The position numbers and the translations under genes are program-made. Shown one piece after another: positions 746 through 45,064 of a stretch of 64,000 bases of DNA (its first letter is position 1; each line of letters begins with the position of its first letter). Source of the stretch: Cellvibrio sp. PSBB006 (lineage in GTDB: Bacteria; Pseudomonadota; Gammaproteobacteria; Pseudomonadales; Cellvibrionaceae); assembly GCF_002162135.1 (NCBI RefSeq), contig NZ_CP021382.1, forward strand, positions 310,001 to 374,000. The letters are read 5' to 3'. Below the pieces are notes generated by a model. That model was not told where the DNA came from. It did not search any database and was given only the letters and a program-made list of their open reading frames with translations.

Positions 746-853
746 GTTTGTCGTTAGGCCATTGGGTTTCGAAAGCGCATAAACACTTCCCTGTGGCTCC
801 CTCAATTCATCCCTGAATTGAGGGTTTCGAAACCCAATGGCCTAACGCCAAAC
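746..853 (-). repeat. Three-way-junction palindromic element B1
   Basis: The outer arms 746-774 and 825-853 are complementary at 28 of 29 positions. Inside are a small conserved-type hairpin (P2, about 775-798) and an inner hairpin with CTCAATTCA/TGAATTGAG arms (P3, 800-821). P2 here has CAC/GTG where other copies have TACA/TGTA, a compensatory change. The strand given is the one reading GAGC-TAC. The element occupies the gap between the NUP-family gene and the nucleoside hydrolase. It belongs to variant B, together with 20626-20729. Confidence 0.85.
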
Positions 854-931
854 TTGTAGTGTGTGAGCTTCAAGTGTGTTGAAGAAAAATCATATTCATT
901 AAATTACTTAACGGTTTTTTTGGAAAAAATT

Positions 932-2020
932 ATGGGGCGATACTGGATAACGTTTTGTTTGCTTTTGCTAGGTTGTTTTTCTTCAGTATCACAAGCCAAA
1001 CCCATCATCTTCGACAACGACATGGCCATTGATGATTGGGCGGCGTTGTTGTATTTACTGCATCATCCCGAGGCGGATGTGATTGCGATTACTATTTCTG
1101 CCAGCGGTGAAACCCGGTGTCAGCCGGGTATTGCTAATACGCTTTCGTTGTCGGATCTCCCGGGGAATGTTGCTCAGGGTATTGCTGTTGCCTGCGGTGA
1201 TGATTGGCCGTTGGATGGTTATTTTGTTTTTCCCGAGGCCTGGCGGGTTGATTCGGATACGCTTTCGGGTGTGCCGGTGAAAAAAAGTCAGCGAACAGTT
1301 GCCAAGGCACATGCGGTTGAGGTGATTCACAAGGCGCTGCAGGATTCCGCAACGCCGGTTACCTTGGTTGCGACGGGGCCTTTGACGAATATTGCGCAGT
1401 GGCTGGAGCGTTATCCAACGGATAAAGCGCGGGTGGAGCAGCTGGTGATTATGGGCGGTAATGTTGATGTGCCGGGAAATATTATTGTGCCGAATTTTAC
1501 CGATGGTCATCCGAATAAGACGGCAGAGTGGAATATCTTTGTTGATCCGCTCGCGGCGGATAAGGTAATGCAATCCGGATTACCCGTTGTTCTGGTGGGG
1601 TTGGATGTGACTAACTCGGTGCGCGTCACGAATAAGGTAGCCAAAGATTTTAAACAAGCGGTTAAAACAACATCGGCAAAATTCTGGGATCAGGTGTTGG
1701 ATAAAAATGATTGGTTTATTGCTTCTGGCGAATATTATTTCTGGGACACGCTCGCGGTGTTGATCGCGATGGATAGCAGCTTGTGTGAAGGGGATATGCA
1801 GTCATTGAAAGTGGCTTACCAGGCGACTGATAAACCCTGGGAACAAACCACTGATATGCGGATGCCGGATAAGCGGTGGGATGGCAAAGCGCGTGTTCAT
1901 CTGGATGCAAAGACAGCCGGAACCCTGATTAAGGATGCGCGCTATCCTGCGGTTAAGGTATGTCGTAAAACGCAGCCCGAAAAAATATTTGCTGAATTTC
2001 GGCAGGTGATCAATCAGTAA
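932..2020 (+). CDS. Exported nucleoside hydrolase (IUNH family)
   Basis: Predicted inosine/uridine-preferring nucleoside hydrolase that splits ribonucleosides into base and ribose. The N-terminal calcium/ribose-binding motif is DNDMAIDDWAAL, a variant of the family's DTDPGIDDA. TGPLTNIA and the VIMGGN strand are typical, and N..DP follows near residue 205. I start at the ATG at 932 because it puts a signal peptide directly at the N-terminus. An upstream in-frame ATG at 863 would add 23 residues ahead of the signal. The signal contains LLLLGC, so the protein may be a lipoprotein; cleavage after SQA is the alternative. An exported hydrolase fits a pathway that cleaves nucleosides before import. 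Confident on family, less so on substrate. Confidence 0.88.
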   Translation: MGRYWITFCLLLLGCFSSVSQAKPIIFDNDMAIDDWAALLYLLHHPEADVIAITISASGETRCQPGIANTLSLSDLPGNVAQGIAVACGDDWPLDGYFVFPEAWRVDSDTLSGVPVKKSQRTVAKAHAVEVIHKALQDSATPVTLVATGPLTNIAQWLERYPTDKARVEQLVIMGGNVDVPGNIIVPNFTDGHPNKTAEWNIFVDPLAADKVMQSGLPVVLVGLDVTNSVRVTNKVAKDFKQAVKTTSAKFWDQVLDKNDWFIASGEYYFWDTLAVLIAMDSSLCEGDMQSLKVAYQATDKPWEQTTDMRMPDKRWDGKARVHLDAKTAGTLIKDARYPAVKVCRKTQPEKIFAEFRQVINQ

Positions 2021-2027
2021 AGGTTGA

Positions 2028-3008
2028 TCACGCGCGCGTCAAGTAATGGATACTGAATAAGGCCTGGTGATCAGTCCAGGCCTTAATGTGGTTGAAGCCA
2101 CAGGCAATGCCCAGTTTGGCGATATCTTCAATCGTGTATTTATAGGAATTCTCAGTGTGAATGGTTTCTCCGCATTTGAAATGAAACCGTTTGTCAGCGA
2201 TTTTTACTGTCTGGGTTGCCAGGCTCACCAAATGCATTTCAATGCGCGACAGTGCCATATTAAAGAAAGCATAATGCTCAAATTTGTGGCGATCAAAATC
2301 AGCCCCCAATTCGTTGTTGATACGGCGTAACAGGTTTAAATTAAAATCTGCCGTTACGCCTTCTTTATCGTTATAAGCCTCATGTAAACGACTGGGTGAT
2401 TTTAATAAATCAACACCGATTAACAGACCGTCACCAGGTTTTAACAACGCATTGATGCGGTCCAGAAATTCGGTTGCTTCTTCCCGACTGAAATTACTGA
2501 TAGTAGAGCCAGGAAAGAACACCACCCGCGGGTTGAATCGGTCGGATGCCACGACCTCTGGCAAGCGGATGTGCGTCATGTAATCGCCCACCACCGGATG
2601 AATAATCATGTGTGGAAATTCCCGTTTCAGCTGACTGGTGGAGCGCAGTAAAATTTCCGCCGAGATATCAATCGGTGTATAAGATTTGGGACTATCCAAA
2701 GCCGTTAACAGGTGACGAATCTTACGGCCTTCGCCGCTGCCATATTCAATAATGTTGGCATTTCGTCCGATCAGTCGAGCAACATCCGGCAAGATTTCAT
2801 CCAGTAGGGAGAGCTCGGTGGTGGTGATGTAGTACTCTTCGGTTTTACAAATTTCGGTAAATAAAATAGAGCCGCGTTCATCGTAAAAATATTTGCACGG
2901 CAAGGTTTTTGGCGATTGGCTCAGGCCATAGATCACATCTTGCAGAAACTGCGTGTCCCTATAATAGGCTGCACCTTCCGTTATTTTTTTTGCATTAATC
3001 GAGTTCAT
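2028..3008 (-). CDS. egtD: L-histidine N-alpha-methyltransferase (ergothioneine)
   Basis: EgtD-type SAM-dependent methyltransferase (DUF2260 family) that trimethylates histidine to hercynine, the first step of ergothioneine synthesis. At 326 residues the length is normal. Recognisable parts are the N-terminal LPCKYFYDERGS(I/x)LF block, the SAM motif NIIEYGSGEGRKIRHLL, PVVGDY, and FFPGSTISNF. The start overlaps the end of egtB by 14 bases, so the two are translationally coupled and transcribed from the minus strand. The coding end (about 2059-2086) contains a GGCCTGG/CCAGGCC palindrome that could form a hairpin but lies inside the gene. Why thiol-antioxidant genes sit within a purine island is unclear. 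Confidence 0.93.
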   Translation of the reverse strand: MNSINAKKITEGAAYYRDTQFLQDVIYGLSQSPKTLPCKYFYDERGSILFTEICKTEEYYITTTELSLLDEILPDVARLIGRNANIIEYGSGEGRKIRHLLTALDSPKSYTPIDISAEILLRSTSQLKREFPHMIIHPVVGDYMTHIRLPEVVASDRFNPRVVFFPGSTISNFSREEATEFLDRINALLKPGDGLLIGVDLLKSPSRLHEAYNDKEGVTADFNLNLLRRINNELGADFDRHKFEHYAFFNMALSRIEMHLVSLATQTVKIADKRFHFKCGETIHTENSYKYTIEDIAKLGIACGFNHIKAWTDHQALFSIHYLTRA

Positions 3009-4236
3009 CAGCGAGCCTCACTCCGGAAAATTGCCAACGGGCGTTAACAGGAAAAAAATTACGATAACTGGCCCTGATATGGTCTGCCGGTGTCGCGCAG
3101 GAGCCACCGCGCAACACCCATTGATTCACCATAAATTTGCCGTTGTATTCACCGACCGCTCCAGGTGCAGGGCGATAACCGGGATAGGGCAGGTAAGCAC
3201 TCTGGGTCCATTCCCAGACGTCACCAAACATTTGCAGTAAGCCGGGTTGCTTGTCTGCCGGTTGTGGGTGGAGTCGTGACAGATCTAAAAAATGGCTGTT
3301 GTTGTTAGCAATGGTTGATGCAACTTCCCATTCAAATTCAGTGGGCAAGCGTTTGCCGGACCAGGCAGCGAAAGCGTTGGCTTCAAAATAATTGATATGA
3401 CACACCGGCTCATTCAGACGCAGCGGTTGCAAACCCGCCAGGGTGTACACATGCCATTCATCATCCAGGTATTGCCAATACAAGGGCGCTGTTGTGCCCG
3501 TTTCGTTTACCCACGCCCAACCTTCAGATAACCACAGCGCCGCTTGCTGGTAACCCTTGTCTTTAATAAACGCCAGGAATTCACCGTTGGTCACCGGACG
3601 ATTCGCCAAACGGAAACCTGCAATATGCGTGAGGTGACGAGGCATTTCGTTATCGAAGCAAAAACCTTTATCGCAGCCGATACGGTATTCACCAGCGGGA
3701 AAATCTTGCCATTGCATACCGACCGCACCTGTTGGTGTCCCGGTGGGCGAGGTCAGGATGGCAGGACACTGTGGTTGATGAGAGAGCGCGTGCTTGATAT
3801 CGGTGACGATAAGTTCCTGATGTTGTTGTTCGTGATGGATACCCAGCTCAACCAGTTGCAATTCTTCATGCGTTAACGCATTCCATACATGTTGTATTTT
3901 TTCTTCGACAGCGAAACGGTATTGCCAGACTTCATCAAGACTGGGCCGCGAAATCAATCCGCGTTGCGCGCGGCGAAATTGCGGGCCGACGCCGTTGTAA
4001 TAGGAATTAAATAAATACGCAAATTCATCGGGAAAAGCGGGATTGGCCTGACGGGGTTTAAGAATAAATGTATCGAAAAACCACGAGGTATGTGCCAGAT
4101 GCCACTTGGTTGGACTGGCGTCTGGCATGGATTGCAGCATATGATCATCTGCCGTTAACAGGTTTGACAGATGCTCACTAAGTTTTCGCGTGCGCAAAAA
4201 GTTTTCGCGCAGTTGCTTTACATCCGTTTCCATCAT
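2995..4236 (-). CDS. egtB: Ergothioneine biosynthesis protein EgtB
   Basis: Iron-dependent sulfoxide synthase that joins hercynine to a thiol donor with oxygen. The N-terminal DinB-like domain carries the WHLAHTSWFFDTF motif and a second HHEQQHQEL metal motif. The C-terminal formylglycine-generating-enzyme-like domain contains MFGDVWEWT and VLRGGSCATP. At 413 residues it matches the family. It is the first gene of an egtB-egtD pair. The 4237-4403 gap upstream contains an inverted repeat TGCGTCCAA/TTGGACGCA (4308-4316 and 4347-4355), which could be an operator or a terminator of the upstream deaminase gene. Which thiol is used (cysteine or gamma-glutamylcysteine) cannot be told from the sequence alone. 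Confidence 0.94.
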   Translation of the reverse strand: MMETDVKQLRENFLRTRKLSEHLSNLLTADDHMLQSMPDASPTKWHLAHTSWFFDTFILKPRQANPAFPDEFAYLFNSYYNGVGPQFRRAQRGLISRPSLDEVWQYRFAVEEKIQHVWNALTHEELQLVELGIHHEQQHQELIVTDIKHALSHQPQCPAILTSPTGTPTGAVGMQWQDFPAGEYRIGCDKGFCFDNEMPRHLTHIAGFRLANRPVTNGEFLAFIKDKGYQQAALWLSEGWAWVNETGTTAPLYWQYLDDEWHVYTLAGLQPLRLNEPVCHINYFEANAFAAWSGKRLPTEFEWEVASTIANNNSHFLDLSRLHPQPADKQPGLLQMFGDVWEWTQSAYLPYPGYRPAPGAVGEYNGKFMVNQWVLRGGSCATPADHIRASYRNFFPVNARWQFSGVRLADELD

Positions 4237-4403
4237 TACGCTTCCTGAGTTTTCAGGCGCAGGGGACGTAATGTCATCAATAAAAAAATAACCTTTGATG
4301 TGACGTTTGCGTCCAATCAGCCATAGTAATTTTCTTTACTTTACGGTTGGACGCAGGGTGCTGCTGTGCGAATCCCAACATAAGCCGGGATTCGTCAGGG
4401 CGG

Positions 4404-5792
4404 TCAAGCGGTTAAGCGGCGGGTGAGTTGTTTGGCAGCGTGGGTGTGGCGAGCCACAATTTCATGGATATCCTGTTCCAGCAGGGTACCTTGTTTTACT
4501 TTCCATTCGCCACCTACCATGACGTAGTCCGCTTTGTGGGCGCCGCATAACACCAATGCAGCCAGGGCGTCACCATAACCGGAAAAGCGTGGTTCATCGA
4601 GGCAGAACAACGCCAGATCCGCTTGTTTACCGACCGCGATTTCACCAAGTTCAGGCCGGTGTAATAAACGGGCACTGCCTTGCGTTGCCATAGCGAGCGC
4701 ATCCAGGTGGGAGAATTGCGCAGCACCGTAACGCAGTTTTTGTAGCAACATGGCCTGACGTACTTCCTGCATCATGTTTGAACCGTCATTGGAGGCGGAA
4801 CCGTCCACACCCAACCCAACCGGGGCACCGGCTTTTTGTAAATCCAGGGTGCAACACATGCCGGATGCCAGCAACATATTGGATGACGGACAGTGGCAAA
4901 CACCGATACAAGCGTGACCCAGTCGTTGCACTTCTTCATCATTAAAATGAATGCCGTGAGCCAACCATACGCGATCATTCAGCCAACCGACATCACCTAG
5001 GTAATCCACCGGACGTTGTCCGAATTTTTTCAGGCAGAATGTATTTTCATCTTCTGTTTCACCGAGATGCGTGTGTAGCAGCACATTTTTTTGTTGCGCA
5101 AGTTTGGCAGTCTCGCGCATTAAATCCGGCGTAACAGAAAATGGCGAGCAGGGCGCGAGGGCGATCTGACATCGGGATTCTTCCGTTGCATCGTGATAGG
5201 CGCGAATCAACCGTTCGCTCTCGGATAATATCTGCGCATCACTTTCCACCACAGAATCCGGTGGCAGGCCACCAGCGGATTGACCGAGACTCATGGAGCC
5301 GCGCGTTAACGTCACACGGTTGCCGATAGCTTCTGCGGCCGCGACCTGAACGTCAATGGCGTGAGGCATGATGCTGCTGAATACATAGTGATGATCCGCC
5401 GTCGTGGTACAACCGGACAACAATAATTCACTCAACGCCAATTGTGTGGAGGCAAAGATGGCGTCGTCATCGAGATTGGCCCACACCGGGTAAAGTGCTT
5501 GCAACCAGGGGAATAATTCTTTGTTCAGAGCAGCAGGTAGTGCACGGGTCAAGGTCTGATAAAAATGATGATGACAATTAATCAGACCGGGTAACACGAC
5601 ATGCCCGGATGCATCAAAGGTGTGCTGATAAAGTGTTTGCGGTTCCTGGCCGCGCGCAACCAACTCGACGATCCGGCTGCCGCGAATCACAATGCCATTG
5701 CCAGCATCATGGGAATTCCCGGTCCAGCAGGCGAGCGGATGTTTGATCCAGGTGGCATCGGAGGCGATGCCACGAACAAGCGTTGTATTCAT
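4404..5792 (-). CDS. 8-oxoguanine deaminase (amidohydrolase family)
   Basis: Zinc-dependent amidohydrolase that converts 8-oxoguanine to urate, and possibly guanine or isocytosine analogues. Metal and substrate motifs are visible: NCHHHFYQTLTRALP, TADHHYVF, HTHLGETEDEN, HGIHFND and LGVDGSASNDGSN. The phrasing matches the 8-oxoguanine deaminase branch rather than classical GuaD, which is present separately at 17616. At 462 residues the length is usual. Its ATG overlaps the stop of the TetR regulator gene (ATGA), so it is the last gene of the BMP-TetR-deaminase unit. The product urate feeds PuuD/UraH/UraD encoded further right. Confidence 0.9.
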   Translation of the reverse strand: MNTTLVRGIASDATWIKHPLACWTGNSHDAGNGIVIRGSRIVELVARGQEPQTLYQHTFDASGHVVLPGLINCHHHFYQTLTRALPAALNKELFPWLQALYPVWANLDDDAIFASTQLALSELLLSGCTTTADHHYVFSSIMPHAIDVQVAAAEAIGNRVTLTRGSMSLGQSAGGLPPDSVVESDAQILSESERLIRAYHDATEESRCQIALAPCSPFSVTPDLMRETAKLAQQKNVLLHTHLGETEDENTFCLKKFGQRPVDYLGDVGWLNDRVWLAHGIHFNDEEVQRLGHACIGVCHCPSSNMLLASGMCCTLDLQKAGAPVGLGVDGSASNDGSNMMQEVRQAMLLQKLRYGAAQFSHLDALAMATQGSARLLHRPELGEIAVGKQADLALFCLDEPRFSGYGDALAALVLCGAHKADYVMVGGEWKVKQGTLLEQDIHEIVARHTHAAKQLTRRLTA

Positions 5793-6502
5793 GAATTGAC
5801 GTCAGTTAATACGGGTGCACGGGCCGGTGGTTCCAGGCCGCAACCCTTCAGGATAATATCGCTGAGAAAATTGGAAATGTCGCGCACCATATCCGGTTCA
5901 TACTCGGCGCGGTTCATGATGGTGAGTACTTGTACGTCGAAGTCGGCGTAATGTTGCGTGGAAGACCAGATCAGAAAAATCAGCTGCACCGGATCAACTT
6001 TGGCCATACGCCCCTGTTCAATCCAGCTCTCGATAATTCGCGCTTTGGTACGCACCCATTGGCGCATCTCGGTACGAATATAATCTTTTAAATGGGGTGC
6101 TCCCTGAATCATCTCCATCGCAAAAAGTTTTGATGCGCGCGGGTGAGTATAGGATAGCTCCACTTTTTTACGGATAAATTCATCGAGCACCACAGCGGGA
6201 TCATCTTCTTCTTTGATATTGTCGAAAAAGTCATTCCACAGGTGAATCAGGTTATCCAACACCGCAATGTACAAATTGGATTTACTTTTGAAGTAATAAT
6301 GCACATTCGCTTTGGGAATAGCAGCGCGATCTGCTATCGCCTGAATACTGGTGCCACGGTAACCATTCTGGACAAATTCTTCTTCGGCAGCGTTGATAAT
6401 ATTTGTCAGGTTACGATCCCGAATTTTACCCGGCTTGTATTTTCCGGTCGGGGTTCCAGTGGGATCAAAATCCAGAGTTTTTTCCAAAATCTTGTTGGCC
6501 AT
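5789..6502 (-). CDS. TetR-family regulator, RutR-like
   Basis: Transcriptional regulator of about 237 residues. The HTH is near residues 25-70 (SIQAIADRAAIPKANVHYYFKSKSNLY, split by the recognition helix), followed by a long C-terminal YcdC/RutR-type ligand domain. RutR-like proteins sense pyrimidines or purines. In this context a purine or related nitrogen compound is the likely effector (inference). The ATG at 6502 is chosen because the following residues (MANKILEKTL) begin a normal N-terminus; an upstream extension to 6571 is possible but lacks family support. It is preceded by the BMP-binding-protein gene and overlaps the 8-oxoguanine deaminase start by 4 bases. Confidence 0.88.
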   Translation of the reverse strand: MANKILEKTLDFDPTGTPTGKYKPGKIRDRNLTNIINAAEEEFVQNGYRGTSIQAIADRAAIPKANVHYYFKSKSNLYIAVLDNLIHLWNDFFDNIKEEDDPAVVLDEFIRKKVELSYTHPRASKLFAMEMIQGAPHLKDYIRTEMRQWVRTKARIIESWIEQGRMAKVDPVQLIFLIWSSTQHYADFDVQVLTIMNRAEYEPDMVRDISNFLSDIILKGCGLEPPARAPVLTDVNS

Positions 6503-6583
6503 CGTTATTGTTTCTCGCTGAAGTTTTACTGTGTCCTTTCTGTTTGACGGGCCAGGAGGCCCGACAAGCACGGCGATTAAATA

Positions 6584-7654
6584 TTACTGGGGTATTTTGC
6601 CTTCTATACCCTTCACATACCAGTTTTGCTTGTGCAATTCCTCGTCATTCAGGAATTTGCCTTCGGCGACCATCAGCTCACCCGCTTGATTATAGATCGG
6701 CCCCTGATACACATCGCGCTTACCGGCGATAATGTCGGCTTTATATTGTTCAACTTTTTCCACCACGGTTTTGGGTACGATAGGGTTGATCGGCGAAATA
6801 TCCACGACGCCTTCTTTCAGGCCGTGCCAGATAGATTCCGATTTCCAGGTGCCGTCCAACACGGCTTGAACTTTTGCGCGATAAATGCTTTCCCAATGTT
6901 GGGTAGAAGAAGTCAAATGGACTTTAGGGCCGTAAGCGGTCATATCGGAATTAAAACCGACGGCATAAACATTCTTTGCCGCGGCGGCCTGCACAACGGC
7001 AGCCGAATCTGTGTGCATGGTTAATACATCGGCACCTTGCAAAATTAAACTCTCCGCCGCTTCACGCTCACGCGCCGGGTCGTGCCAGGTATTGACCCAC
7101 ACCACTTTCATTTTAATATCCGGATTCATCTGCTGCGCGCCGAGCATAAATGAATTGATACCGCGAATAACTTCAGGAATAGGAAATGCGCCGACGTATC
7201 CGATCACACCATCTTTGCTCATGGCGCCGGCGACCATGCCGGCGAGGTAGCGACCTTGATAATCGCGCGCCTGGTAGTTACCGACATTGGGTGCAGTTTT
7301 ATAGCCGGTGGCGTGTTCAAATTTTACTTTGGGGAACATCTTACCCACTTTGATAGTGGGGTTCATGTAGCCGAAGGAGGTGGTGAATATCAGGTCGTAG
7401 CCGCGTGAGGCCATATTGCGAATGACACGCTCGGCATCGGCGCCTTCGGCGACGCTTTCGACGTAGGAGGTTTCGATTTTATCGCCGAATTCGTTGGCGA
7501 CTATTTTGCGTGCTTCGTCGTGCATGTAGGTCCATCCGGCGTCGCCGATGGGGCTGACGTAGACGAAGCCGACTTTGAGTGGTTCGGCGTAGAGGACGGT
7601 GCTCCAGCTGATCAGTGTGGCGGTTGCCAGTCCGAATAAGTGACGTAGTTTCAT
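6584..7654 (-). CDS. BMP-family ABC transporter substrate-binding protein (nucleoside/purine)
   Basis: Periplasmic binding protein of the Bmp/PnrA/NupN family, which usually binds purine nucleosides or bases. A signal peptide of about 23 residues ends at LYA-EP, and there is no lipobox. The mature chain starts with KVGFVYVSPIGDAGWT, the family signature with the base-stacking region. At 356 residues the length is normal. It is on the minus strand, downstream of the two permeases and ATPase but separated from them by a 505-base gap with two palindromic elements. It may be a read-through member of that operon or have its own promoter. The first 90 codons end mostly in C or A, so the plus strand here is G/T-rich. 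Confidence 0.93.
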   Translation of the reverse strand: MKLRHLFGLATATLISWSTVLYAEPLKVGFVYVSPIGDAGWTYMHDEARKIVANEFGDKIETSYVESVAEGADAERVIRNMASRGYDLIFTTSFGYMNPTIKVGKMFPKVKFEHATGYKTAPNVGNYQARDYQGRYLAGMVAGAMSKDGVIGYVGAFPIPEVIRGINSFMLGAQQMNPDIKMKVVWVNTWHDPAREREAAESLILQGADVLTMHTDSAAVVQAAAAKNVYAVGFNSDMTAYGPKVHLTSSTQHWESIYRAKVQAVLDGTWKSESIWHGLKEGVVDISPINPIVPKTVVEKVEQYKADIIAGKRDVYQGPIYNQAGELMVAEGKFLNDEELHKQNWYVKGIEGKIPQ

Positions 7655-7697
7655 GTTTTATTCCTCTGTAGGGAAAATAATTTCTGTATCAGTGTGG

Positions 7698-7805
7698 GCA
7701 TAAGTTCGGTGGTTGTTATGGAGACACGCCGTGAATACATCCTTGTAGGCTCATCACCCGCATCCATGCGGGTGATGGTCTCCATAACAACCACCGAACT
7801 CATGC
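7698..7805 (-). repeat. Three-way-junction palindromic element A1
   Basis: The outer arms 7698-7725 and 7778-7805 pair at 27 of 28 positions. The conserved core on the plus strand runs from ACACGCCGTGAATAC through CTTGTAGGCTC, followed by an inner hairpin ATCACCCGCAT/ATGCGGGTGAT. The single imperfect pair is A-C on the plus strand, hence G-U on the minus strand. It lies 43 bases upstream of the binding-protein ATG. Confidence 0.9.
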
Positions 7806-8025
7806 TGCGAGTTCAGTGTTCACTTAACTTTTTTAAAAGCAGTACAAAAAAGAAACTGAAATTTCTTGTGCTGCTATTTCAAATCAATTCTTTACGCTGC
7901 CATATCTCTAAATCTTTGGGTATTAATTTCCCAACAAGAAAGGTAACGGAAACCTAAGTATGTTGAACAACAGGTGACCAACTTTCGTGGCTTTTTAGCA
8001 TTAGAATGATGCACCATCGGCCAAA

Positions 8026-8129
8026 GGGAATTGGGTAAAGGTTTGTGAGACTGTCGCCGGCAAGGATGCCGGCGTCAAGCCTACAGGGACGTATTCACGG
8101 CGTGTCTCACAGGCCTTTACCCAATTCCC
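8026..8129 (+). repeat. Three-way-junction palindromic element A2
   Basis: The outer arms 8026-8051 and 8104-8129 pair at 24 Watson-Crick positions plus two G-U pairs (26 of 26 in RNA). The inner hairpin is CGCCGGCA/TGCCGGCG and the core CCTACAGGGACGTATTCACGG matches the other copies. It lies just past the stop of the minus-strand permease gene, oriented opposite to A1. Confidence 0.9.
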
Positions 8130-8159
8130 ACTCCAATCCACATTAAAAACACCAAAAAA

Positions 8160-9086
8160 CTACCTCTGAGGATAATAAGGCTGCCCCAAAGACCGAGGCG
8201 CAAACAACCCGTTACCTTGCTTGCGACGCATCATCATCACCAACACCAAAATCGTTACCACATACGGCAACATCGCCAATAAATTGGGTGAAATTTCATA
8301 ACCATAACCCTGCAACAACAAATGCAGAATACTCGCAAAACCAAATAACCAGGCGCCTAACAAAACCCGTTCCGTTCGCCAGCTGGCAAACACCACCAAG
8401 GCTAACGCAATCCAACCGCGTCCCGCGGCAATACCTTCCGACCACATAGGTGTATACACCAGAGATAAATACGCACCTGCCAGGCCCGCCATGGCGCCGC
8501 CGAATACCACGGCGGAATAGCGCACGAGCAATACTTTATAGCCGAGGGCGTGGGCGACTTCCGGGTTTTCGCCGACGGCGCGGATGATCAGACCCAAACG
8601 GGTGTAGCGCATTACGATATAAATCGCTGCGAACAACATAAATGAGAGATACACCAGCATATCCTGCGCGAACAGCGCTTTGCCGATGAGTGGTAGTTGG
8701 TGCAATAAAGGAATGTGCAGCGGTGTTAATCCAATTAACGATTGGCCCACGTAACTTGCACCGAGAAAAGCGCTTAAGCCGGTGCCGAAGATTGTCAGGG
8801 CCAAGCCGGTTGCTACCTGGTTGGAGATGAGCGTCAAGGCGATAAAGGCAAAGATGAGTGAGACCAGTGCGCCGGCTACGGCGCCGGCCAGTACGCCCCA
8901 GCCGAGGTTGCCGGCGCTGTAGGCGGCGATAAATGCGCAGGCGGCACCGACGAGGATCATGCCTTCCTGTCCCAAATTTAATACACCGGAGCGTTCCGAT
9001 ACCATTGCGCCCAGTGCAACAAGTAGCAGTGGAGTGCCGGTGCGCACCATGGCGAAAAGAATATTTTCGATCAAGAGTAAATCCAT
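8160..9086 (-). CDS. ABC transporter permease (nucleoside uptake, NupQ-like)
   Basis: Inner-membrane permease of the branched-chain/BMP-type importer class (BPD_transp_2), 308 residues, nearly all hydrophobic helices (eight to ten predicted by eye). The family block ERSGVLNLGQEGMILVGA near residue 31 marks the ABC-facing cytoplasmic loop. It pairs with the longer permease encoded immediately upstream (12-base gap), forming the usual two-permease channel for purine nucleosides or bases. It is on the minus strand in one operon with the ATPase. The downstream gap carries element A2. Confidence 0.92.
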   Translation of the reverse strand: MDLLLIENILFAMVRTGTPLLLVALGAMVSERSGVLNLGQEGMILVGAACAFIAAYSAGNLGWGVLAGAVAGALVSLIFAFIALTLISNQVATGLALTIFGTGLSAFLGASYVGQSLIGLTPLHIPLLHQLPLIGKALFAQDMLVYLSFMLFAAIYIVMRYTRLGLIIRAVGENPEVAHALGYKVLLVRYSAVVFGGAMAGLAGAYLSLVYTPMWSEGIAAGRGWIALALVVFASWRTERVLLGAWLFGFASILHLLLQGYGYEISPNLLAMLPYVVTILVLVMMMRRKQGNGLFAPRSLGQPYYPQR

Positions 9087-9097
9087 AACACTAAAAC

Positions 9098-11717: not shown

Positions 11718-11755
11718 AAACCTGACTAACTGGACAAAAAAGATAGGATTGGTAT

Positions 11756-11771
11756 AGCAATATATATGCCA
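11756..11771 (-). promoter_or_regulatory. Predicted sigma-54 (-24/-12) promoter of the nucleoside ABC operon
   Basis: On the minus strand the site reads TGGCATA-TATA-TTGCT, a near-perfect match to the RpoN consensus TGGCAC/T-N5-TTGCW. The GG and GC are spaced exactly 12 bases apart. Transcription would start near 11745, about 28 bases before the ATG at 11717. Confidence 0.8.
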
Positions 11772-11823
11772 CGGCCTAAATGCCACCTGGCCTGGCAAAT
11801 TCTTTCCCAAAAAATTGTCTATT

Positions 11824-11839
11824 TGGCCAGACTTTTGCT
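11824..11839 (+). promoter_or_regulatory. Predicted sigma-54 (-24/-12) promoter of xdhA
   Basis: The plus strand reads TGGCCAG-ACTT-TTGCT, with GG and GC spaced exactly 12 bases apart. Predicted start is near 11850, about 50 bases upstream of the xdhA ATG at 11901. It is back to back with the opposite-strand site at 11756-11771. Confidence 0.72.
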
Positions 11840-15716: not shown

Positions 15717-15816
15717 GCACTGCAATATTCCCTCTGAGACACGCCGTGAATACATCCCTGTAGGCTCAGCACCCGCATCCATGCGGGTGATGGTCTCAGA
15801 GGGAATATCGCAGTGC
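15717..15816 (-). repeat. Three-way-junction palindromic element A3
   Basis: The outer arms 15717-15740 and 15793-15816 pair at 23 of 24 positions. The one exception is A-C on plus, that is G-U on minus. The conserved core and an inner hairpin CACCCGCAT/ATGCGGGTG are present. It lies inside the xdh operon between xdhB and xdhC, so it must be read through or acts as a partial terminator. Confidence 0.9.
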
Positions 15817-20492: not shown

Positions 20493-20600
20493 AGAACCAG
20501 GCCGAAGAGGGGTGCGAGACCATCAGCGGCATGGATGCCGCTGTTGAGCCTACAAGGAGGTATTCACGGCGTGTCTCGCACCCCTCTTCGGTCTGGATCT
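20493..20600 (+). repeat. Three-way-junction palindromic element A4
   Basis: The outer arms 20493-20520 and 20573-20600 give 26 Watson-Crick pairs, one G-U and one A-A mismatch. The inner hairpin is CAGCGGCAT/ATGCCGCTG. P2 is imperfect in this copy (CCTACAAGGAGGTATTCACGG). It follows the xdh-puuD operon. Confidence 0.9.
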
Positions 20601-20625: not shown

Positions 20626-20729
20626 GCCTGATAAACTGATGTCCTTCTGAAAACGCATAAATACATCCCTGTAGCTCCCTCACGTCATCCCTGACGTGAG
20701 GGTTTCAGAAGGACATCAGTCCACCAGGC
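20626..20729 (-). repeat. Three-way-junction palindromic element B2
   Basis: The outer arms 20626-20652 and 20703-20729 have 24 of 27 complementary, including 18 perfect inner pairs. The three exceptions are A-C on plus, that is G-U on minus. The core is GCATAAATACATCCCTGTAGC, then inner hairpin CTCACGTCA/TGACGTGAG. Variant B differs from variant A in the P2 base and in the inner stem. Confidence 0.87.
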
Positions 20730-23551: not shown

Positions 23552-23585
23552 TGTCGGATTACGCTGTGCTAATCCGACCTACATG
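23552..23585. repeat. GTCGGATTA/TAATCCGAC intergenic palindrome, copy 1
   Basis: GTCGGATTA, a short loop and TAATCCGAC, ending in CTACATG. It is a REP-like hairpin common in proteobacterial intergenic DNA. Similar copies lie at 23610, 43481 and 49175. Confidence 0.8.
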
Positions 23586-23609
23586 TTAACTGAGTGATTT
23601 GCATATTAC

Positions 23610-23642
23610 CCGTAGGTCGGATTAGCGCAGTGCAATCCGACA
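23610..23642. repeat. GTCGGATTA/TAATCCGAC intergenic palindrome, copy 2
   Basis: GTAGGTCGGATTAGCG, a short loop, then CAATCCGACA. It lies 25 bases after copy 1 in opposite orientation, so the pair forms a larger inverted repeat. Confidence 0.8.
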
Positions 23643-31908: not shown

Positions 31909-32010
31909 GGAATCCGGTGTTTTGTTCTGAGACACGCCGTGAATACATCCATGTAGGCTCAACACCCGCATCCCTGCGGGTGATGGTCTCAGAACAAAAC
32001 ACCGGATTCC
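31909..32010 (-). repeat. Three-way-junction palindromic element A5
   Basis: The outer arms 31909-31933 and 31986-32010 are perfectly complementary over 25 bases. The inner hairpin is CACCCGCA-TCCC-TGCGGGTG. The core is conserved. It starts 15 bases past the tonB stop. Confidence 0.92.
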
Positions 32011-32196: not shown

Positions 32197-32355
32197 GCAG
32201 GGATTGCGGAGAGGGGTGCGAGACCATCACCCGCATGGACGACCCACATGGATGTGGGAAGTTTGCCGAAGCGCCGGGAGCGCGTAGGCATGCCGGTGTT
32301 GAGCCTACAGGGATGTATTCACGGCGTGTCTCGCACCCCTCTCCGTGATCCCTGC
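32197..32355 (+). repeat. Three-way-junction palindromic element A6, long variant
   Basis: The outer arms 32197-32224 and 32328-32355 give 26 Watson-Crick plus two G-U pairs. This copy has about 50 extra bases inside P3, forming a CCCACAT/ATGTGGG hairpin and a GCC/GGC-closed branch. The sibling long copy at 40797 has CCC/GGG at the same place, a compensated change. Confidence 0.9.
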
Positions 32356-35768: not shown

Positions 35769-35793
35769 GGCTCCTATGCCAGCGGATCTGTAA
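35754..35793. repeat. Tandem duplication at the NUP-family stop codon
   Basis: CCAGCGGACCTGTAA (35754-35768, containing the stop) recurs 25 bases later as CCAGCGGATCTGTAA (35779-35793). The flanks of the two copies also agree, indicating a local 25-base tandem duplication of the gene end. Confidence 0.75.
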
Positions 35794-35806
35794 TAACGGT
35801 TTGTTT

Positions 35807-35827
35807 GTCGGCGCCACTGGCGCCGAC
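35807..35827. other. Strong hairpin upstream of the amidase gene
   Basis: GTCGGCGCC-ACT-GGCGCCGAC is a nine-pair GC-rich stem without a T-run. It lies 58 bases upstream of the amidase ATG. It is an attenuator, a partial terminator of the upstream pair, or a regulator site. Confidence 0.5.
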
Positions 35828-35884
35828 CTGATGTAAAGATGTGGGCGATGCATCGGGCATGGCCCCTTGGCAGGAAACGTTTTG

Positions 35885-39494: not shown

Positions 39495-39495
39495 C

Positions 39496-40752
39496 ATGTC
39501 CGACCGTTTTCAACCTGCTGCCAATTTATTAACCCCATTTTCTCCACCACCGCGACTCTTGATGGGCCCCGGCCCCATCACTGTCGACCCGCGCGTACTG
39601 CGCGCCATGTCCGCGCAACTGGTCGGCCAATACGACCCGGCCATGACCCAATGTATGAACGACACCATGGCGCTGTATCGCAGTGTTTTTAAAACAGACA
39701 ATCAGTGGACATTATTAATTGACGGTACGTCACGTGCAGGTATTGAAGCCGTATTGATTTCATTACTTGAGCCTGGCGACAAAGTTCTTGTACCGATCTT
39801 CGGTCGCTTCGGCCACTTGTTGTGTGAAATTGCCGAACGTTGCGGCGCAGAAGTGCATCGCATCGAGAAAACCTGGGGCGACGTTTTTTCGGCGGAAGAA
39901 ATTGAAGCCGCGATTAAAAATGTACAACCCAAATTATTGGCCGTCGTACAAGGCGACACCTCCACCACCATGCTGCAACCACTGCAACACCTCGGCGAGA
40001 TGTGCGAGCGTTACGGCGTTTTATTTTACTCAGACGCCACCGCTTCCATCGGCGGAAATCCATTCCTCACCGACGACTGGAAACTCGACGCTGTTTCCGT
40101 TGGCCTGCAAAAATGTTTATGCGGCCCCTCCGGCAGCGCACCCATAACCTTAAGCGACAAGGCCGTAAAAACCATTCGCAAACGCCGCCACGTTGAAGCC
40201 GGCATTCGCAACGAACACCACAAAGACGGCAGCGGCTTACGCATCGCCTCCAACTATTTTGATCTGGGCATGATCATGGACTACTGGGGCGAAGAACGCC
40301 TCAACCACCACACCGAAGCCACAACCATGCTATACGGCGCCCGCGAATGCGCACGCATCTTATTGGAAGAAGGCGTAGACAACGCCATCGAACGCCACCG
40401 CATCCACGGCCGTGCCATGACCGAAGGTTTGGCCGCGATGAACATGAAACTCTTCGGCGATCAGTCACACAAAATGCATAATGTGGTAGGTGTTTACATT
40501 CCGGATGGCGTAGCAGGCGAGGCGGTGCGCGGTTCGATGTTGAATGATTTTGGTATTGAAATTGGTACGTCGTTTGGGCCTTTGCACGGAAAAATCTGGC
40601 GCGTGGGGACGATGGGTTATAACGCGCGGAAGGATGCGGTGTTGCAGACGTTGGTGGCGCTGGAGGCGGTGTTGCGGCGGCAGGGGCATGGGATGACGGC
40701 GAATGCCGGTGTTGATCGGGCACTCGCTATTTATGTTGAAGAAGGGCTTTAA
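39496..40752 (+). CDS. Class V aminotransferase, ureidoglycine/alanine-glyoxylate type (PucG/HpxJ-like)
   Basis: Pyridoxal-phosphate enzyme of about 418 residues. MGPGPITVDPRVLRAM is the family start, DGTSRAGIEAVLIS, YSDATASIGGNPF and the PLP lysine in VGLQKCLCGPSG follow. PucG and HpxJ members transfer the amino group of ureidoglycine to glyoxylate and fit the step after allantoate hydrolysis. Alanine-glyoxylate activity is the alternative. The ATG at 39496 follows GGAG; a TTG at 39484 is less likely. Codons are C/A-rich up to about 40.48 kb and then abruptly G/T-rich to the stop, a conspicuous switch inside one gene. Confidence 0.9.
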   Translation: MSDRFQPAANLLTPFSPPPRLLMGPGPITVDPRVLRAMSAQLVGQYDPAMTQCMNDTMALYRSVFKTDNQWTLLIDGTSRAGIEAVLISLLEPGDKVLVPIFGRFGHLLCEIAERCGAEVHRIEKTWGDVFSAEEIEAAIKNVQPKLLAVVQGDTSTTMLQPLQHLGEMCERYGVLFYSDATASIGGNPFLTDDWKLDAVSVGLQKCLCGPSGSAPITLSDKAVKTIRKRRHVEAGIRNEHHKDGSGLRIASNYFDLGMIMDYWGEERLNHHTEATTMLYGARECARILLEEGVDNAIERHRIHGRAMTEGLAAMNMKLFGDQSHKMHNVVGVYIPDGVAGEAVRGSMLNDFGIEIGTSFGPLHGKIWRVGTMGYNARKDAVLQTLVALEAVLRRQGHGMTANAGVDRALAIYVEEGL

Positions 40753-40796
40753 CGCTTTTGCTTTTTTCTGTCTCGCTTACAGCGGAATAGCTTAGG

Positions 40797-40951
40797 GGGA
40801 GTTCGGTGTTTGTTATTGCGACCATCAGCGGCAAGGACGACCCACATGGATGTGGGAAGTTTCCCGAAGCGCCGGGAGCGCGTAGGGATGCCGCTGTTGA
40901 GCCTACAAGGATGTATTCACGGCGTGTCGCAATAACAAATGCCGAACTCCC
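40797..40951 (+). repeat. Three-way-junction palindromic element A7, long variant
   Basis: The outer arms 40797-40822 and 40926-40951 give 24 Watson-Crick and two G-U pairs. The P3 insertion resembles that of A6 and includes CCCACAT/ATGTGGG, with CCC/GGG replacing the GCC/GGC of A6. It follows the aminotransferase stop by about 45 bases. Confidence 0.9.
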
Positions 40952-41015
40952 TGACGCACTACCTAAGATATATAAACCCGATTTTGTACGTACTAATTTT
41001 TTTACTTTTGCGTGA

Positions 41016-41123
41016 ACATGACTTCGGTACTTACCATGGTGACACGCCGTGAATACATCCCTGTAGGCTCAACAGCGACATCCATGTCGCTGATGGTCAC
41101 CATGGTAAGTACCGAATTCATGT
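41016..41123 (-). repeat. Three-way-junction palindromic element A8
   Basis: The outer arms 41016-41043 and 41096-41123 pair at 27 of 28 positions. The inner hairpin is CAGCGACAT/ATGTCGCTG. It lies immediately upstream of the ribosome site of the adenine deaminase gene, so in mRNA it would sit in the leader. Confidence 0.9.
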
Positions 41124-41144
41124 CGGCAAGATTGGAGTGTTGAA

Positions 41145-42203
41145 ATGAGAAATTTAAACGCGGATTTACATGGTCTGGGCAGGTTGGAAGAAATTGCCAC
41201 TAAAGAGTTTTTGGCGGGTATGCCTAAAGCAGAACTGCATATGCATATTGATGGAGCACTCTCACCAGCCATGATGTTCGCGCTGGGTGAACGGAATCAA
41301 GTCAAATTACCATATAAATCCGTCGCAGAAATTGAAGCCGCCTATCAGTTTACTAACCTGCAAAGTTTTCTTGATTTGTTATATCAAGGCGCTTCTGTGC
41401 TTAAGCACGAGCAGGATTATTATGATCTGACGCGGGATTATTTTTCCAAGTGTAAAGAAGATAATGTTGTTCATACTGAATTGTCGTTTGATCCACAAAC
41501 CCACACCGAGCGCGGTATTGCTTTCGATACGGTGATCAGCGGGATTTTGCGGGCGATGGAGGATGCGCGGAAGGAGTGGGGGGTCAGTTCTAAATTGGTG
41601 ATGGATTTTCTGCGGCATTTAAGTGCAGAGAATGCGATGCAGACGCTGGAGCAGGCGTTGCCGTGGAAGGATAAGATTATTGCGGTGGGGCTGGATAGTT
41701 CTGAAATGGGGCATCCGCCGAGTAAGTTTACTGCGGTGTTTGCCCGTGCGCGGGAGGAGGGGTTTCGGGTGGTGGCTCATGCGGGTGAGGAGGGGCCGCC
41801 GGCGTATATTTGGGAGGCGATTAATTTGCTGAAGGTGGATCGCATTGATCATGGTGTACGTTCGGATGAAGATCCGGCGTTGATGGAATATCTGCGCGAA
41901 ACACAAATCCCGTTGACGGTTTGCCCGTTGTCTAACGTTCGTTTATGTGTATACGACAAGATGCAGGATCACAATCTATTTACCTTGATGGATGCGGGGT
42001 TGCGGGTGATGGTGAATTCGGATGATCCCACCTATTTTGGCGGTTATCTGAATGATAATTTCTTTGCACTGGCCGATGCGTTTCCGATGACGCGCGCACA
42101 GGCATTGCAGTTGGCCCATAACAGTTTTACGGCCAGTTTTATCAGCGATGCTGAAAAAACACACTTCATTAAACAGCTTCGGGATTATGCGGTAACGCAT
42201 TAA
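41145..42203 (+). CDS. Adenine/adenosine deaminase (cytoplasmic, Ada fold)
   Basis: Zinc deaminase of 352 residues without a signal peptide. [15 protein letters not shown] (HxH), [23 protein letters not shown] and [12 protein letters not shown] are visible. The [13 protein letters not shown] stretch matches the adenine deaminase (PA0148-like) branch rather than classical adenosine deaminase. It therefore probably converts adenine to hypoxanthine for xanthine dehydrogenase (subgroup is inference). GGAG lies 10 bases before the ATG. Codons become strongly G/T-rich between about 41.5 and 41.86 kb. Confidence 0.9.
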
Positions 42204-42213
42204 GAGTTAATTC

Positions 42214-43455
42214 ATGCTTGATATCAATATCCTTGCTGCGCGGGTCATGAACTGGTGCGATCAATTGGCCGCGATCAGTGCGAGCCCGGACGGCATCAGC
42301 CGTTTTTATTTGACGCCGGAACATCGCCGTTGCAATGAGCAAGTGGCGGAGTGGATGGAGCAGGCCGGCATGACCACCTGGACGGATGCGGCGGGTAATT
42401 TGCTCGGGCATTACGCCGGTGCAACGGATGATGCAAAAATTTTATTGTTGGGCTCCCATCTGGATTCCATTCCCAACGCCGGTCGTTACGACGGTATCCT
42501 CGGTGTGCTGTTGGCGATTGCGGCTGTTGAACAGTTGCACACGGACAATATTAAATTGCCGTTTGCTATCGAAGTTGTCGGCTTTGGTGATGAAGAGGGC
42601 ACTCGTTTTGGTAGCACGCTGTTGGGTAGTCGCGCCCTGGCGGGTACCTGGAATCCAGCCTGGTGGTCGCTCGCTGATCGCGACGGTATTTCGCTCGCGG
42701 ATGCGTTTAAGGAATTTGGTTTACAGCCGGACCACATCGGCACAGCAGCGTTAAAAAATGCGGACTTACTCGCGTATCTTGAAGTGCATATTGAACAGGG
42801 CCCGGTGCTGGAAGACACGGACCATGCCTTGGGAATTGTGACTTCCATTGCTGGCGCACGTCGTTTTCATATTGATGTAAAAGGTTATGCCGGTCATGCA
42901 GGCACGGTGCCGATGCATATGCGCAAAGATGCGTTGTTGGGTGCGGCATTGGGTGTGGAATTAATCGAGCGACTTGCCCGCGAAAACGGTGTGGTGGCGA
43001 CGGTCGGGCAACTGGAAGTCTGGCCCGGTGCAGTAAATGTGATTCCCGGTCGTGCCCGTTTTTCGATTGATATCCGCTCGGGTGATGATGATCGGCGCGA
43101 TGAAACCCTCGCAAAAATTCAACATGAATTTTCCGATATTTGTAAAAGCCGGCAACTGGCTTGCAATTGGACTGAAATTCACAACGCGCCGGCAGTGTTA
43201 TGCGCTGACTGGATTCAGGGTGTGCAGGCTCAAGTGTTGGAAGACATGAATCTCGAACCGGTGCGGCTGATGAGCGGTGCCGGTCACGACGCCATGGCTA
43301 TGGCCGAGATTACTGACGTGGCCATGTATTTTGTTCGCTGTAAAGGCGGGGTCAGTCATCACCCGGATGAATCGGTGATGGTGGAAGATGTGGCGCTTGC
43401 GCTTGATGCGCTAACCAGAACCTTGTTGAAACTTGGCGCCACCCTAAATTTATAA
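42214..43455 (+). CDS. allC: Allantoate amidohydrolase (M20/Zn-dependent hydrolase)
   Basis: M20-family metallohydrolase of 413 residues that hydrolyses allantoate to ureidoglycine, ammonia and carbon dioxide. Metal ligands and family blocks are LLGSHLDSIPNAGRYDG, FGDEEGTRFGSTLLGSRALAG, EVHIEQGPVLE, GYAGHAGTVPM and SGAGHDAMAMA. Hydantoinase/carbamoylase-type M20 enzymes look similar, but the pathway context strongly favours allantoate. It follows the deaminase gene by 10 bases and precedes a convergent terminator. Its product would feed the class V aminotransferase at 39496. Confidence 0.9.
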   Translation: MLDINILAARVMNWCDQLAAISASPDGISRFYLTPEHRRCNEQVAEWMEQAGMTTWTDAAGNLLGHYAGATDDAKILLLGSHLDSIPNAGRYDGILGVLLAIAAVEQLHTDNIKLPFAIEVVGFGDEEGTRFGSTLLGSRALAGTWNPAWWSLADRDGISLADAFKEFGLQPDHIGTAALKNADLLAYLEVHIEQGPVLEDTDHALGIVTSIAGARRFHIDVKGYAGHAGTVPMHMRKDALLGAALGVELIERLARENGVVATVGQLEVWPGAVNVIPGRARFSIDIRSGDDDRRDETLAKIQHEFSDICKSRQLACNWTEIHNAPAVLCADWIQGVQAQVLEDMNLEPVRLMSGAGHDAMAMAEITDVAMYFVRCKGGVSHHPDESVMVEDVALALDALTRTLLKLGATLNL

Positions 43456-43480
43456 ACCGGATTTATATTTCACTGGCGAA

Positions 43481-43516
43481 TGTCGGATTACGCCTTTGGC
43501 TAATACGACCTACATG
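43481..43516. repeat. GTCGGATTA-type intergenic palindrome, copy 3
   Basis: TGTCGGATTACGCC, a short loop, then GGCTAATACGACCTACATG. Same family as the copies at 23552 and 23610. It lies between the allantoate gene and the terminator. Confidence 0.78.
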
Positions 43517-43526
43517 CTGGATTCAT

Positions 43527-43557
43527 AAAAAAGCCCCCGACAAGCGAGGGCTTTTTT
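43527..43557. terminator. Bidirectional intrinsic terminator
   Basis: AAAAAAGCCC-CCGACAAGCGA-GGGCTTTTTT. The GC core is flanked by A- and T-runs, so it can serve both the plus-strand allantoate gene and the minus-strand DAHP synthase gene. Confidence 0.85.
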
Positions 43558-43572
43558 ATCACCGTTTACCCA

Positions 43573-44649
43573 TCAAACACCGGTACGTTTCTTTAACGCA
43601 TCCTTGATGGTATCGCGCATCTTGCGCACGGCTTTTTCAGTGGTTTCCCAATCAATACAGGCATCGGTAATCGATACGCCGTATTTCAAATCACACAAGT
43701 CCGCCGGAATACTTTGATTTCCCGCACCGATATTACTTTCCACCATCAAACCGATGATCGACTGATTACCTTCCAGAATCTGGTTAGCCACATTCTCCAT
43801 CACCAGGGTCTGTAACTCGTGGTTCTTGTTGGAGTTGGCATGGCTGCAATCCACCATAATATTCGGCACCAGTTTGGCCTTCGCCAGCTCCTGCTCACAC
43901 ACCGCCACGCTCACCGAATCGTAATTCGGCTTGCCATTCCCACCGCGCAACACCACGTGACCGTAGGTGTTGCCTTTAGTGTGGATGATCGACACCTGAC
44001 CTTCCGTATTAATACCCAGGAAACGGTGCGGTTTGGATACGGATTGCAGGGCATTGATCGCTACCGTCAGGCCACCATCGGTACCGTTCTTGAAACCTAC
44101 TGCCGACGACAGGCCACTGGCCATCTCGCGGTGTGTCTGGGACTCTGTCGTCCGTGCACCGATAGCTGACCAGCTGATCAAATCCTGCAAGTATTGCGGC
44201 GAAATCGGGTCCAGCGCCTCGGTAGCGGTAGGCAAACCAATTTCGGCAATATCCAGCAACAACTTGCGGCCGATATGCAAACCTTCCTGAATCTTGAACG
44301 AATCATTCAGATACGGATCATTGATCAAACCCTTCCAGCCCACGGTGGTACGAGGCTTCTCAAAATAGACGCGCATGACGATATAAATAGTATCGCTGAC
44401 TTCCTCAGCGAGCTTTTGCAAACGTTGGGCATAATCTTTCGCCGCCTCAACATCATGGATAGAGCAGGGGCCGATCACCACAAAAATACGGTGATCCTTG
44501 CGATCCAGAATATTGCGAACAGTAGCGCGGCCTTGCGTCACAACGGCACGGGCTTTATCGCTCAAAGGGAGTTCCTGCTTGAGTGTAGCGGGCGAGATTA
44601 ACAATTCCTGAGATACCACGTTGAGATCGTCTACTTGTGCGTCTGTCAT
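43573..44649 (-). CDS. 3-deoxy-7-phosphoheptulonate synthase (class I DAHP synthase)
   Basis: First enzyme of the shikimate pathway, joining erythrose 4-phosphate and phosphoenolpyruvate. It is the AroF/G/H type of 358 residues. Signatures are VVIGPCSIHD, YFEKPRTTVGWKGLINDPYLND (in two parts), GARTTESQTHREMASGLS and VDCSHANSNKNH. Feedback isoform (Phe, Tyr or Trp) cannot be assigned by eye, so no symbol is given. Single gene with its own promoter; it marks the end of the purine island. Confidence 0.95.
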   Translation of the reverse strand: MTDAQVDDLNVVSQELLISPATLKQELPLSDKARAVVTQGRATVRNILDRKDHRIFVVIGPCSIHDVEAAKDYAQRLQKLAEEVSDTIYIVMRVYFEKPRTTVGWKGLINDPYLNDSFKIQEGLHIGRKLLLDIAEIGLPTATEALDPISPQYLQDLISWSAIGARTTESQTHREMASGLSSAVGFKNGTDGGLTVAINALQSVSKPHRFLGINTEGQVSIIHTKGNTYGHVVLRGGNGKPNYDSVSVAVCEQELAKAKLVPNIMVDCSHANSNKNHELQTLVMENVANQILEGNQSIIGLMVESNIGAGNQSIPADLCDLKYGVSITDACIDWETTEKAVRKMRDTIKDALKKRTGV

Positions 44650-45064
44650 TACATGCGTCCGTCGAAAAAGGTAAGTACGCGGCTATTCTACTGAAAAACT
44701 GGCGTTGATTGTGGATGTTTTTATCAATGGAATATATAGGGAGTAGCAATCAAATAAAAGTTCTTAATAGTCATTGCTGTGGGTCTTGCCTGCTCTTTCC
44801 CTCCGGACCTACACATAAAACTAACGCTTATTCGATGGCACTGAAGGAGTATGGGGTAGAGGGTTCGGGACCATCGGAGGCATGGATGCCGACGTTGAGC
44901 CTACAGGGAAGTATTCACGGCGTGTCCCGAACCCTCTACCCCATACTCCTGCCCCGCAAAAATTTTTTCACTTCCCTGTCAACCGATTCCCCCCGACTTC
45001 GTTAATCCCCCTGAAAGCGCGAAAAACCTCTCGCGCATCCACCGAAACCACCAGGAGAATCACC
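44650..45064. other. Intergenic region with element A9
   Basis: Promoter side of the DAHP synthase gene (a TAGAAT box on the minus strand at 44685-44690 is a possible -10) and element A9, followed by C-rich DNA leading to the secreted repeat protein. Open frames at 44709-45005 translate the element and are not supported as genes. Confidence 0.55.
44845..44950 (+). repeat. Three-way-junction palindromic element A9
   Basis: The outer arms 44845-44871 and 44924-44950 are perfectly complementary over 27 bases. The inner hairpin is GGCAT/ATGCC-centred with mismatches further out. The core CCTACAGGGAAGTATTCACGG is conserved. Confidence 0.9.

Follow-up and report, generated by a model that had tools for sequence, protein, structure and literature searches.

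CsrB/RsmZ-type small RNAs (sRNAs) are single genes that carry many CsrA sites. The CsrA motif has been described as hairpins with GGA loops (PMC4383904), and the RsmE/CsrA consensus as (A/U)CANGGANG(U/A) (PMC6849547); these papers, like the others given below by PMC number, are cited from excerpts. In the excerpted account of Gardner and Eldai, the TwoAYGGAY RNA combines two CsrA-binding motifs, tandem G·A pairs and a poorly conserved external stem, and it has been reported from gut metagenomes, Gammaproteobacteria and Clostridiales (PMC2864571, PMC4333381). Ysr224 ranks among the most prevalent annotated sRNAs (PMC9029176), and its copies, several per genome, differ in expression in Yersinia ruckeri (PMC12112432). 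Here we compare with these systems the eleven palindromic elements of a 64,000-nt stretch of Cellvibrio sp. PSBB006 (NZ_CP021382.1, positions 310,001-374,000; hereafter the window). In searches of the open-licence PMC literature with capped result lists, we found neither a description of this repeat nor a joining of TwoAYGGAY with Ysr224.

From the observed structure, covariation, loop consensus, strand asymmetry and dispersal of the copies along with their arms, we propose, with a probability of about 0.6, that the palindromes are a dispersed repeat which carries a CsrA-type RNA module on one strand, and whose clamp helix is kept for its pairing. Each palindrome would be a copy of a dispersed repeat resembling REPs (repetitive extragenic palindromes) or MITEs (miniature inverted-repeat transposable elements), and the strand opposite to ACGCCGTGAATACATCC would encode a TwoAYGGAY-type three-way-junction RNA. 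In this RNA the outer helix P1 would form a long clamp, the adjacent hairpins P3 and P2 would each present a putative CsrA/RsmA recognition loop, and one RNA could hold one CsrA dimer. Selection on the spreading copies would preserve the loops, the bulge, the junction and parts of the arms, and elsewhere mainly pairing; the free stretches of P1, of P3 and of the top of P2 would therefore drift by compensatory change. The arms would still be nearly perfect because the present genomic copies are mostly young.

All window elements fold as an outer helix P1 enclosing P2 and P3. A first-pass annotation of this DNA had claimed eleven elements with a constant core, in a layout reversed relative to REPs, and a three-way junction whose P1 and P3 are variable and self-complementary. 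This description holds: all eleven are present where it had placed them, and a covariance model built from 32 copies recovers exactly these 11 in the window, nine of which have the 17-nt core with 0-1 mismatches (the other two, 746-853 and 20626-20729, have a variant core). Among 37 copies of this genome, 944 of the 974 arm pairs are Watson-Crick. Paired cells amount to 95.7% in the 32 aligned copies, as compared to 64.9% after shuffling (0 of 500 shuffles reach the observed value), double changes occur in 34 of 39 pairs, and the covariation score is 0.723, versus 0.173 for shuffled copies and at most 0.129 with slid partners. The top of P2 varies from TAC/GTA through TCC/GGA to CCC/GGG, and P2 holds a conserved 5-nt bulge. 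Seven further hairpins of equal strength occur in 131,621 bp (the window plus 21 stretches of the same genome, most of them fetched because they bear copies), and four of the seven belong to the same repeat family. Cores with 2-3 mismatches were retained in the core-and-arm search only at an arm score of at least 12 (178 rows), 134 rows with a score of at least 12 entered the arm-pair tally, and such arms are found in 92 of the 132 exact-core copies, many of the others having bulged arms and some perhaps none; complementarity is therefore measured on copies that possess it. The tallies of setting, orientation and mismatches comprise 166 copies with an arm score of at least 11 (37 from this genome and 129 from others); this cut-off lost L163, and L140 and L151 were excluded as second fetches.

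The first-pass annotation had read the less informative of the two strands; the strand with the favoured fold is the other one, which reads GGATGTATTCACGGCGT. On the annotation's core strand, A·C, C·T and C·C make up most of the arm mismatches, which on the other strand read G·T, G·A and G·G; the loop-strand totals are 174:24 for G·T:A·C, 68:5 for G·A:C·T and 29:2 for G·G:C·C. Because copies of the same subfamily share inherited mismatches, the bias was also counted per genome: 52 genome groups, assigned by hand from contig names, favour G·T on the loop strand, 3 show the reverse and 13 are ties. Tolerance is highest for G·T mismatches, followed by G·A and G·G; A·A and T·T come next, and A·C, C·T and C·C last. 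G·A mismatches are frequent in P3. Both inner hairpins terminate in CANGGANG, with two free positions. Across the 32 aligned copies none of the six fixed positions varies in either hairpin and both N positions are variable, the N of the P3 loop being missing in 4 copies. The second subfamily, named GTTTGGCG (55 copies), shows no variation at 10 of its 12 fixed positions and a single exception at each of the other two, one per hairpin. The CsrA/RsmA consensus CANGGANG is found in a pair of hairpin loops; its outer A/U is present in P2 with T-A stems and fails in some variants. The loop-to-loop distance is mostly 23 nt (range 19-27), in an analysis that conditions on the loop match, whereas the invariance count does not. 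A nested insert, which contributes an extra hairpin bearing the same CANGGANG loop, occurs in the P3 loop of four copies of this genome (two of them in the window) and of one G020 copy, and a fifth copy of this genome (L003) has a shortened version; in L008:1016-1172 it is located in the P2 loop instead. We infer that this strand is transcribed and bound by CsrA, the copies acting as decoys or local switches.

The arms had been claimed to differ at every locus. This holds inside the window and fails genome-wide, as arms nearly identical to those of 746-853 are present at other sites of the genome; in G022 and Sedimenticola, too, arms are shared across loci. Eight fetched G022 copies from different loci have the same arm sequence (one is degenerate), with outer ends common to the 7 aligned copies, G020 copies have a common arm subfamily, and Sedimenticola copies share arms within a REPIN-like unit of about 210 bp. 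In this genome the mean arm identity per core-identity bin (0.33-0.55 versus 0.28 for shuffled arms) points to a weak consensus. Conserved sequence also extends beyond the arms: GTGCCA lies within 40 bp on the 3' side of the core strand in 12 of 37 copies of this genome (0.1 expected), and at the same position in only 5 of 129 copies from other genomes (0.9 expected).

The GTTTGGCG subfamily resolves the arms further; 56 of its 58 copies were read (2 were without anchor), 41 have ungapped 28-bp arms and 40 were used in the flank comparison. The outer 13 and the inner 8 arm pairs are nearly constant and only the 7 middle pairs vary much. Inherited mismatches persist in the 41 ungapped copies (G·A in 32, G·T in 34), while the middle stretches, 30 of them distinct, are fully Watson-Crick in 37 of the 41, and 84 of the 88 changes in the middle pairs are compensated, 4 being one-sided. 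The middle 7-mer matches its own flanks no better (4.88) than permuted ones (4.96). A special arm mutator was rejected, since the variability of the variable arm pairs (0.43) is close to that of free loop positions (0.33-0.60). The middle arm pairs look free to drift, provided that pairing persists.

Table 1. Copies of the repeat in the window; the strand is the one that carries the CANGGANG loops.
Feature	Position	Strand	Evidence
Copy 1; GTTTGGCG subfamily, variant core	746..853	-	fold, covariance model
Copy 2	7698..7805	-	fold, 17-nt core, covariance model
Copy 3; sub-threshold TwoAYGGAY match on +, Ysr224 match on -	8026..8129	+	fold, covariance model, Rfam scan
Copy 4; xdhB/xdhC intergenic, no counterpart in four congeners	15717..15816	-	fold, covariance model, synteny
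Copy 5	20493..20600	+	fold, 17-nt core, covariance model
Copy 6; variant core	20626..20729	-	fold, covariance model
Copy 7	31909..32010	-	fold, 17-nt core, covariance model
Copy 8; nested insert in P3 loop (~32241-32288, hand-counted) forming a third CANGGANG hairpin	32197..32355	+	fold, covariance model
Copy 9; same nested insert as copy 8 (~40839-40886, hand-counted)	40797..40951	+	fold, covariance model
Copy 10	41016..41123	-	fold, 17-nt core, covariance model
Copy 11	44845..44950	+	fold, 17-nt core, covariance model

The window also holds a separate REPIN-like hairpin at 23552-23642 (GACCTAC...GTAGGTC), of the kind that adjoins the single weak Y1_Tnp match of this genome (G000:C1:2609388), and tRNA-Val and tRNA-Asp genes at 62948-63139.

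The family occurs widely. The covariance model, with which 150 of 1967 genome candidates were scored, finds at least 125 copies in this 5,257-kb (5.26-Mb) genome, in which the window is copy-rich (11 per 64 kb versus at least 125 per 5,257 kb). The 20 relatives searched hold 0 to 99 copies each, with matches in 15 of them. At least 119 stretches from GTDB genomes contain the exact 17-nt core, most of them with the label Gammaproteobacteria or that of a subgroup; a few of the matches listed are labelled otherwise, for example a Sphingomonas and a Rhodobacteraceae metagenome-assembled genome (MAG), and viral contigs gave 0 exact core matches. In an even draw across the class, with stricter filters, the repeat is present in 22 of 114 genomes. 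The csrA gene is present in 97 of these 114 genomes, including all 22 repeat carriers, and none of the 17 genomes without csrA has the repeat (one-sided Fisher p 0.019, uncorrected for kinship).

Several copies stand in a particular context. In this genome a weaker copy (52 bits; G000:C1:1775330-1775433) lies about 500 bp from csrA (1775935-1776090), which can be chance given 125 copies. In a Saccharophagus MAG (L024:3106-3755) four copies form a single direct array that repeats about every 180 bp, and a MAG labelled Klebsiella pneumoniae (L058) has four copies, its label possibly being a binning error. In the Sedimenticola MAGs L031, L032, L091, L105 and L119 the unit lies between inverted GTAG-tagged hairpins, REPIN-like, and is sometimes flipped, and L080 has an outer 32-bp inverted repeat beginning with GTAG. 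In L180, L181, L183 and L184 (plasmids from wastewater and a single E. coli chromosome) the repeat is located downstream of a gene for alcohol dehydrogenase, in a piece with insertion sequences nearby; these matches were rejected as pairs of empty and filled sites, since they are mostly a single transferred piece. Copies inside a reading frame, according to a simple frame caller, number 0 of 37 in this genome and 16 of 129 elsewhere.

The order given above, in which arm mismatches are tolerated, is also that of mismatch stability in DNA. The loop strand might act as single-stranded DNA, handled by a structure-reading transposase or recombinase, with P1 paired since only folded copies move. Such a mobile DNA hairpin would suit the dispersal of the copies in mixed orientation and their absence from syntenic loci of congeners. 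It would also suit the close pairs (<300 bp), all 11 of which are inverted in this genome, as in REP dimers (PMC3733652), with 8 inverted and 4 direct pairs elsewhere (three of the latter in one tandem array). We nevertheless regard it as unlikely, because the loops agree with an RNA-binding consensus in each of its fixed and free positions and no mobiliser emerged. The 20 Y1_Tnp loci of relatives (among the matches listed) have no intact core match within 900 bp, a degenerate copy lying 447 bp from a Y1 gene in the copy-rich G022; these 20 loci bear other repeats, and RAYT was rejected as the mobiliser in the genus. No recurrent transposase appears among the 25 commonest Pfam families of 100 flanking proteins (from 216 candidates), the inverted pairs have no spacer of clear homology (top scores 22-29 versus 21 shuffled), and no autonomous version with a gene between the arms was seen in the stretches fetched before that check. 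That the opposite, core strand is the functional one, as a hairpin of 3' untranslated regions (UTRs), a terminator or the sRNA Ysr224, appears very unlikely to us, as the arm mismatches on that strand are mostly of the kinds worst for folding. It would account for the gene 3' ends upstream of the core strand, at a median of 24 bp (19 own copies) and 54 bp (56 others) versus 194 and 130 bp on the opposite side, and Ysr224 is annotated on that strand, its copies varying in expression (PMC12112432).

Other alternatives concern the origin of the arm complementarity. Template switching, in which one arm is copied anew from the other and the core may become inverted, would explain why the P1 helices of four Sedimenticola copies differ by 12 compensated and 0 one-sided changes (6 comparisons), why the P1 helices of L001:194 and of window element 746 are distinguished by a single base pair missing from both arms, and why some core units are inverted with respect to their surroundings (1 of 7 aligned G022 copies and, by eye, 2 of 5 Sedimenticola copies). 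As the main cause it is quite unlikely, however, since inherited mismatches remain uncorrected, since the 17 comparisons with at most 10% differing arm pairs show 7 compensated versus 15 one-sided changes, and since it leaves the strand bias unexplained; it may help to keep the arms complementary, though not everywhere. Fold-back copying at every jump, which had been suggested earlier, is likewise unlikely because arm mismatches are inherited. The first-pass annotation had also suggested that the arms copy local flanking DNA, or the target, in inverted form and are made anew at each insertion. Arm similarity indeed does not track core similarity (L007 and window element 15717 have identical 52-nt cores and match at 47% of 19 arm positions), yet this origin is hardly credible: arms are common to several loci, and the variable stretch is unrelated to the flanks and enclosed by conserved arm parts and flanks. 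Nor did the comparison of empty with filled sites, proposed at that time, lend it support, as in four congeners the element is missing from the xdhB-xdhC junction, where no arm sequence could be recognised by eye either, the genes being only about 70-85% alike in protein. The two-transporter-gene junction at 6584-9086 also has no element in four syntenic congeners.

Some observations weigh against our proposal of a CsrA-type RNA module. Relative to the two flanking genes, antisense orientation of the loop strand is more frequent (13 own copies, 38 others) than sense orientation (10 and 20), and gene 3' ends are closest to the 5' side of the core strand, making the non-loop strand their 3' UTR; this orientation of neighbouring genes counts against a role of the loop strand within adjoining mRNAs. 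Ysr224 was named from the non-loop strand and is reported to be expressed. The tolerance of G·A and G·G, and the tandem G·A in P3, equally suit a DNA hairpin, and csrA is so widespread that its co-occurrence with the repeat carries little weight. Seven pairs of copies identical over 75 nt differ at a mean of 1.86 of the 7 middle pairs, which exceeds the expectation from plain drift. Eukaryotic microRNA hairpin models also match copies, and sub-threshold Rfam scores are weak evidence alone.

If our proposal is true, Ysr224 and TwoAYGGAY-like folds would represent opposite strands of a single dispersed repeat, and modules that bind the global regulator CsrA would spread as mobile DNA. The question of the function of TwoAYGGAY-like RNA would become directly testable, with a large natural set of compensatory changes available within a single genome. 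More tentatively, these may be class-wide mobile RNA-decoy repeats, selfish or domesticated, which spread CsrA/RsmA-binding modules, more than 100 of them in one genome. Each insertion would shift CsrA/RsmA titration, and the copies would stay foldable through a clamp helix that is specific to each copy and that arm-to-arm copying renews in part.

The statement of the first-pass annotation that no named family has this layout was partly wrong, as the Rfam families TwoAYGGAY and Ysr224 are related or the same; the copies of this genome do fall below both thresholds. Intrastrand triplex repeats (PMC4666352) were rejected, since their layout differs. Like MITEs (compare PMC3733652), the repeat is short, non-coding and dispersed, and its outer ends are constant in some lineages (G022, Sedimenticola and the GTTTGGCG subfamily). 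It departs from them in that its arms are mostly not constant terminal repeats and no cognate transposase was found among the flanking proteins. With GTAG/CGTC REPs, REP dimers and REPINs (PMC3733652) it shares short palindromes, inverted close pairs and a frequent position downstream of genes, and, unlike REPs as excerpted there, it has neither constant outer arms nor a RAYT link. The tetranucleotide tag next to a palindrome of 20-40 bp that marks GTAG REPs is lacking, for the GTAG that precedes P3 belongs to the P2 stem and reads GGAG or GGGG in other copies, and no RAYT gene flanked by the repeat was seen at the 20 Y1_Tnp loci; because tag and RAYT link fail, we do not assign it to REPs. 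The GGA-loop hairpins fit the CsrA motif as in CsrB/RsmZ-type sRNAs, from which the repeat differs by its many copies with two, rarely three, sites and by the lack of an identified promoter.

As for Ysr224 (RF02770; PMC9029176, PMC12112432), the repeat has several copies per genome, and the Yersinia pekkanenii copy of its core (L106) matches the whole model with 112 bits on the strand opposite to the loop strand. The threshold of 70 bits is reached only by this copy and by the E. coli stretch L184 (72.4), own-genome copies scoring 25-39; moreover, the Ysr224 model represents the other strand, its outer structure is different, and Ysr224 is described as an sRNA. On the loop strand, TwoAYGGAY (RF01731) matches with 32.6 bits in the window, with 37.8, 37.5 and 32.2 in three copies from L001-L020 and with 36.4 in a Microbulbifer. 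The best score in the stretches scanned (37.8) is below the gathering score of 43 bits, and because of this threshold we do not assign the repeat to TwoAYGGAY. It differs from that RNA by the conserved 5-nt bulge of P2 and by its high-copy, dispersed occurrence. The layout of adjacent AYGGAY-type hairpins inside an external stem is nevertheless the same, with AnGGAn loops that agree in part at the Y positions. The repeat thus shares with TwoAYGGAY, as excerpted in PMC2864571 and PMC4333381, two adjacent AnGGAn-loop hairpins with CsrA-binding motifs within a poorly conserved external stem.

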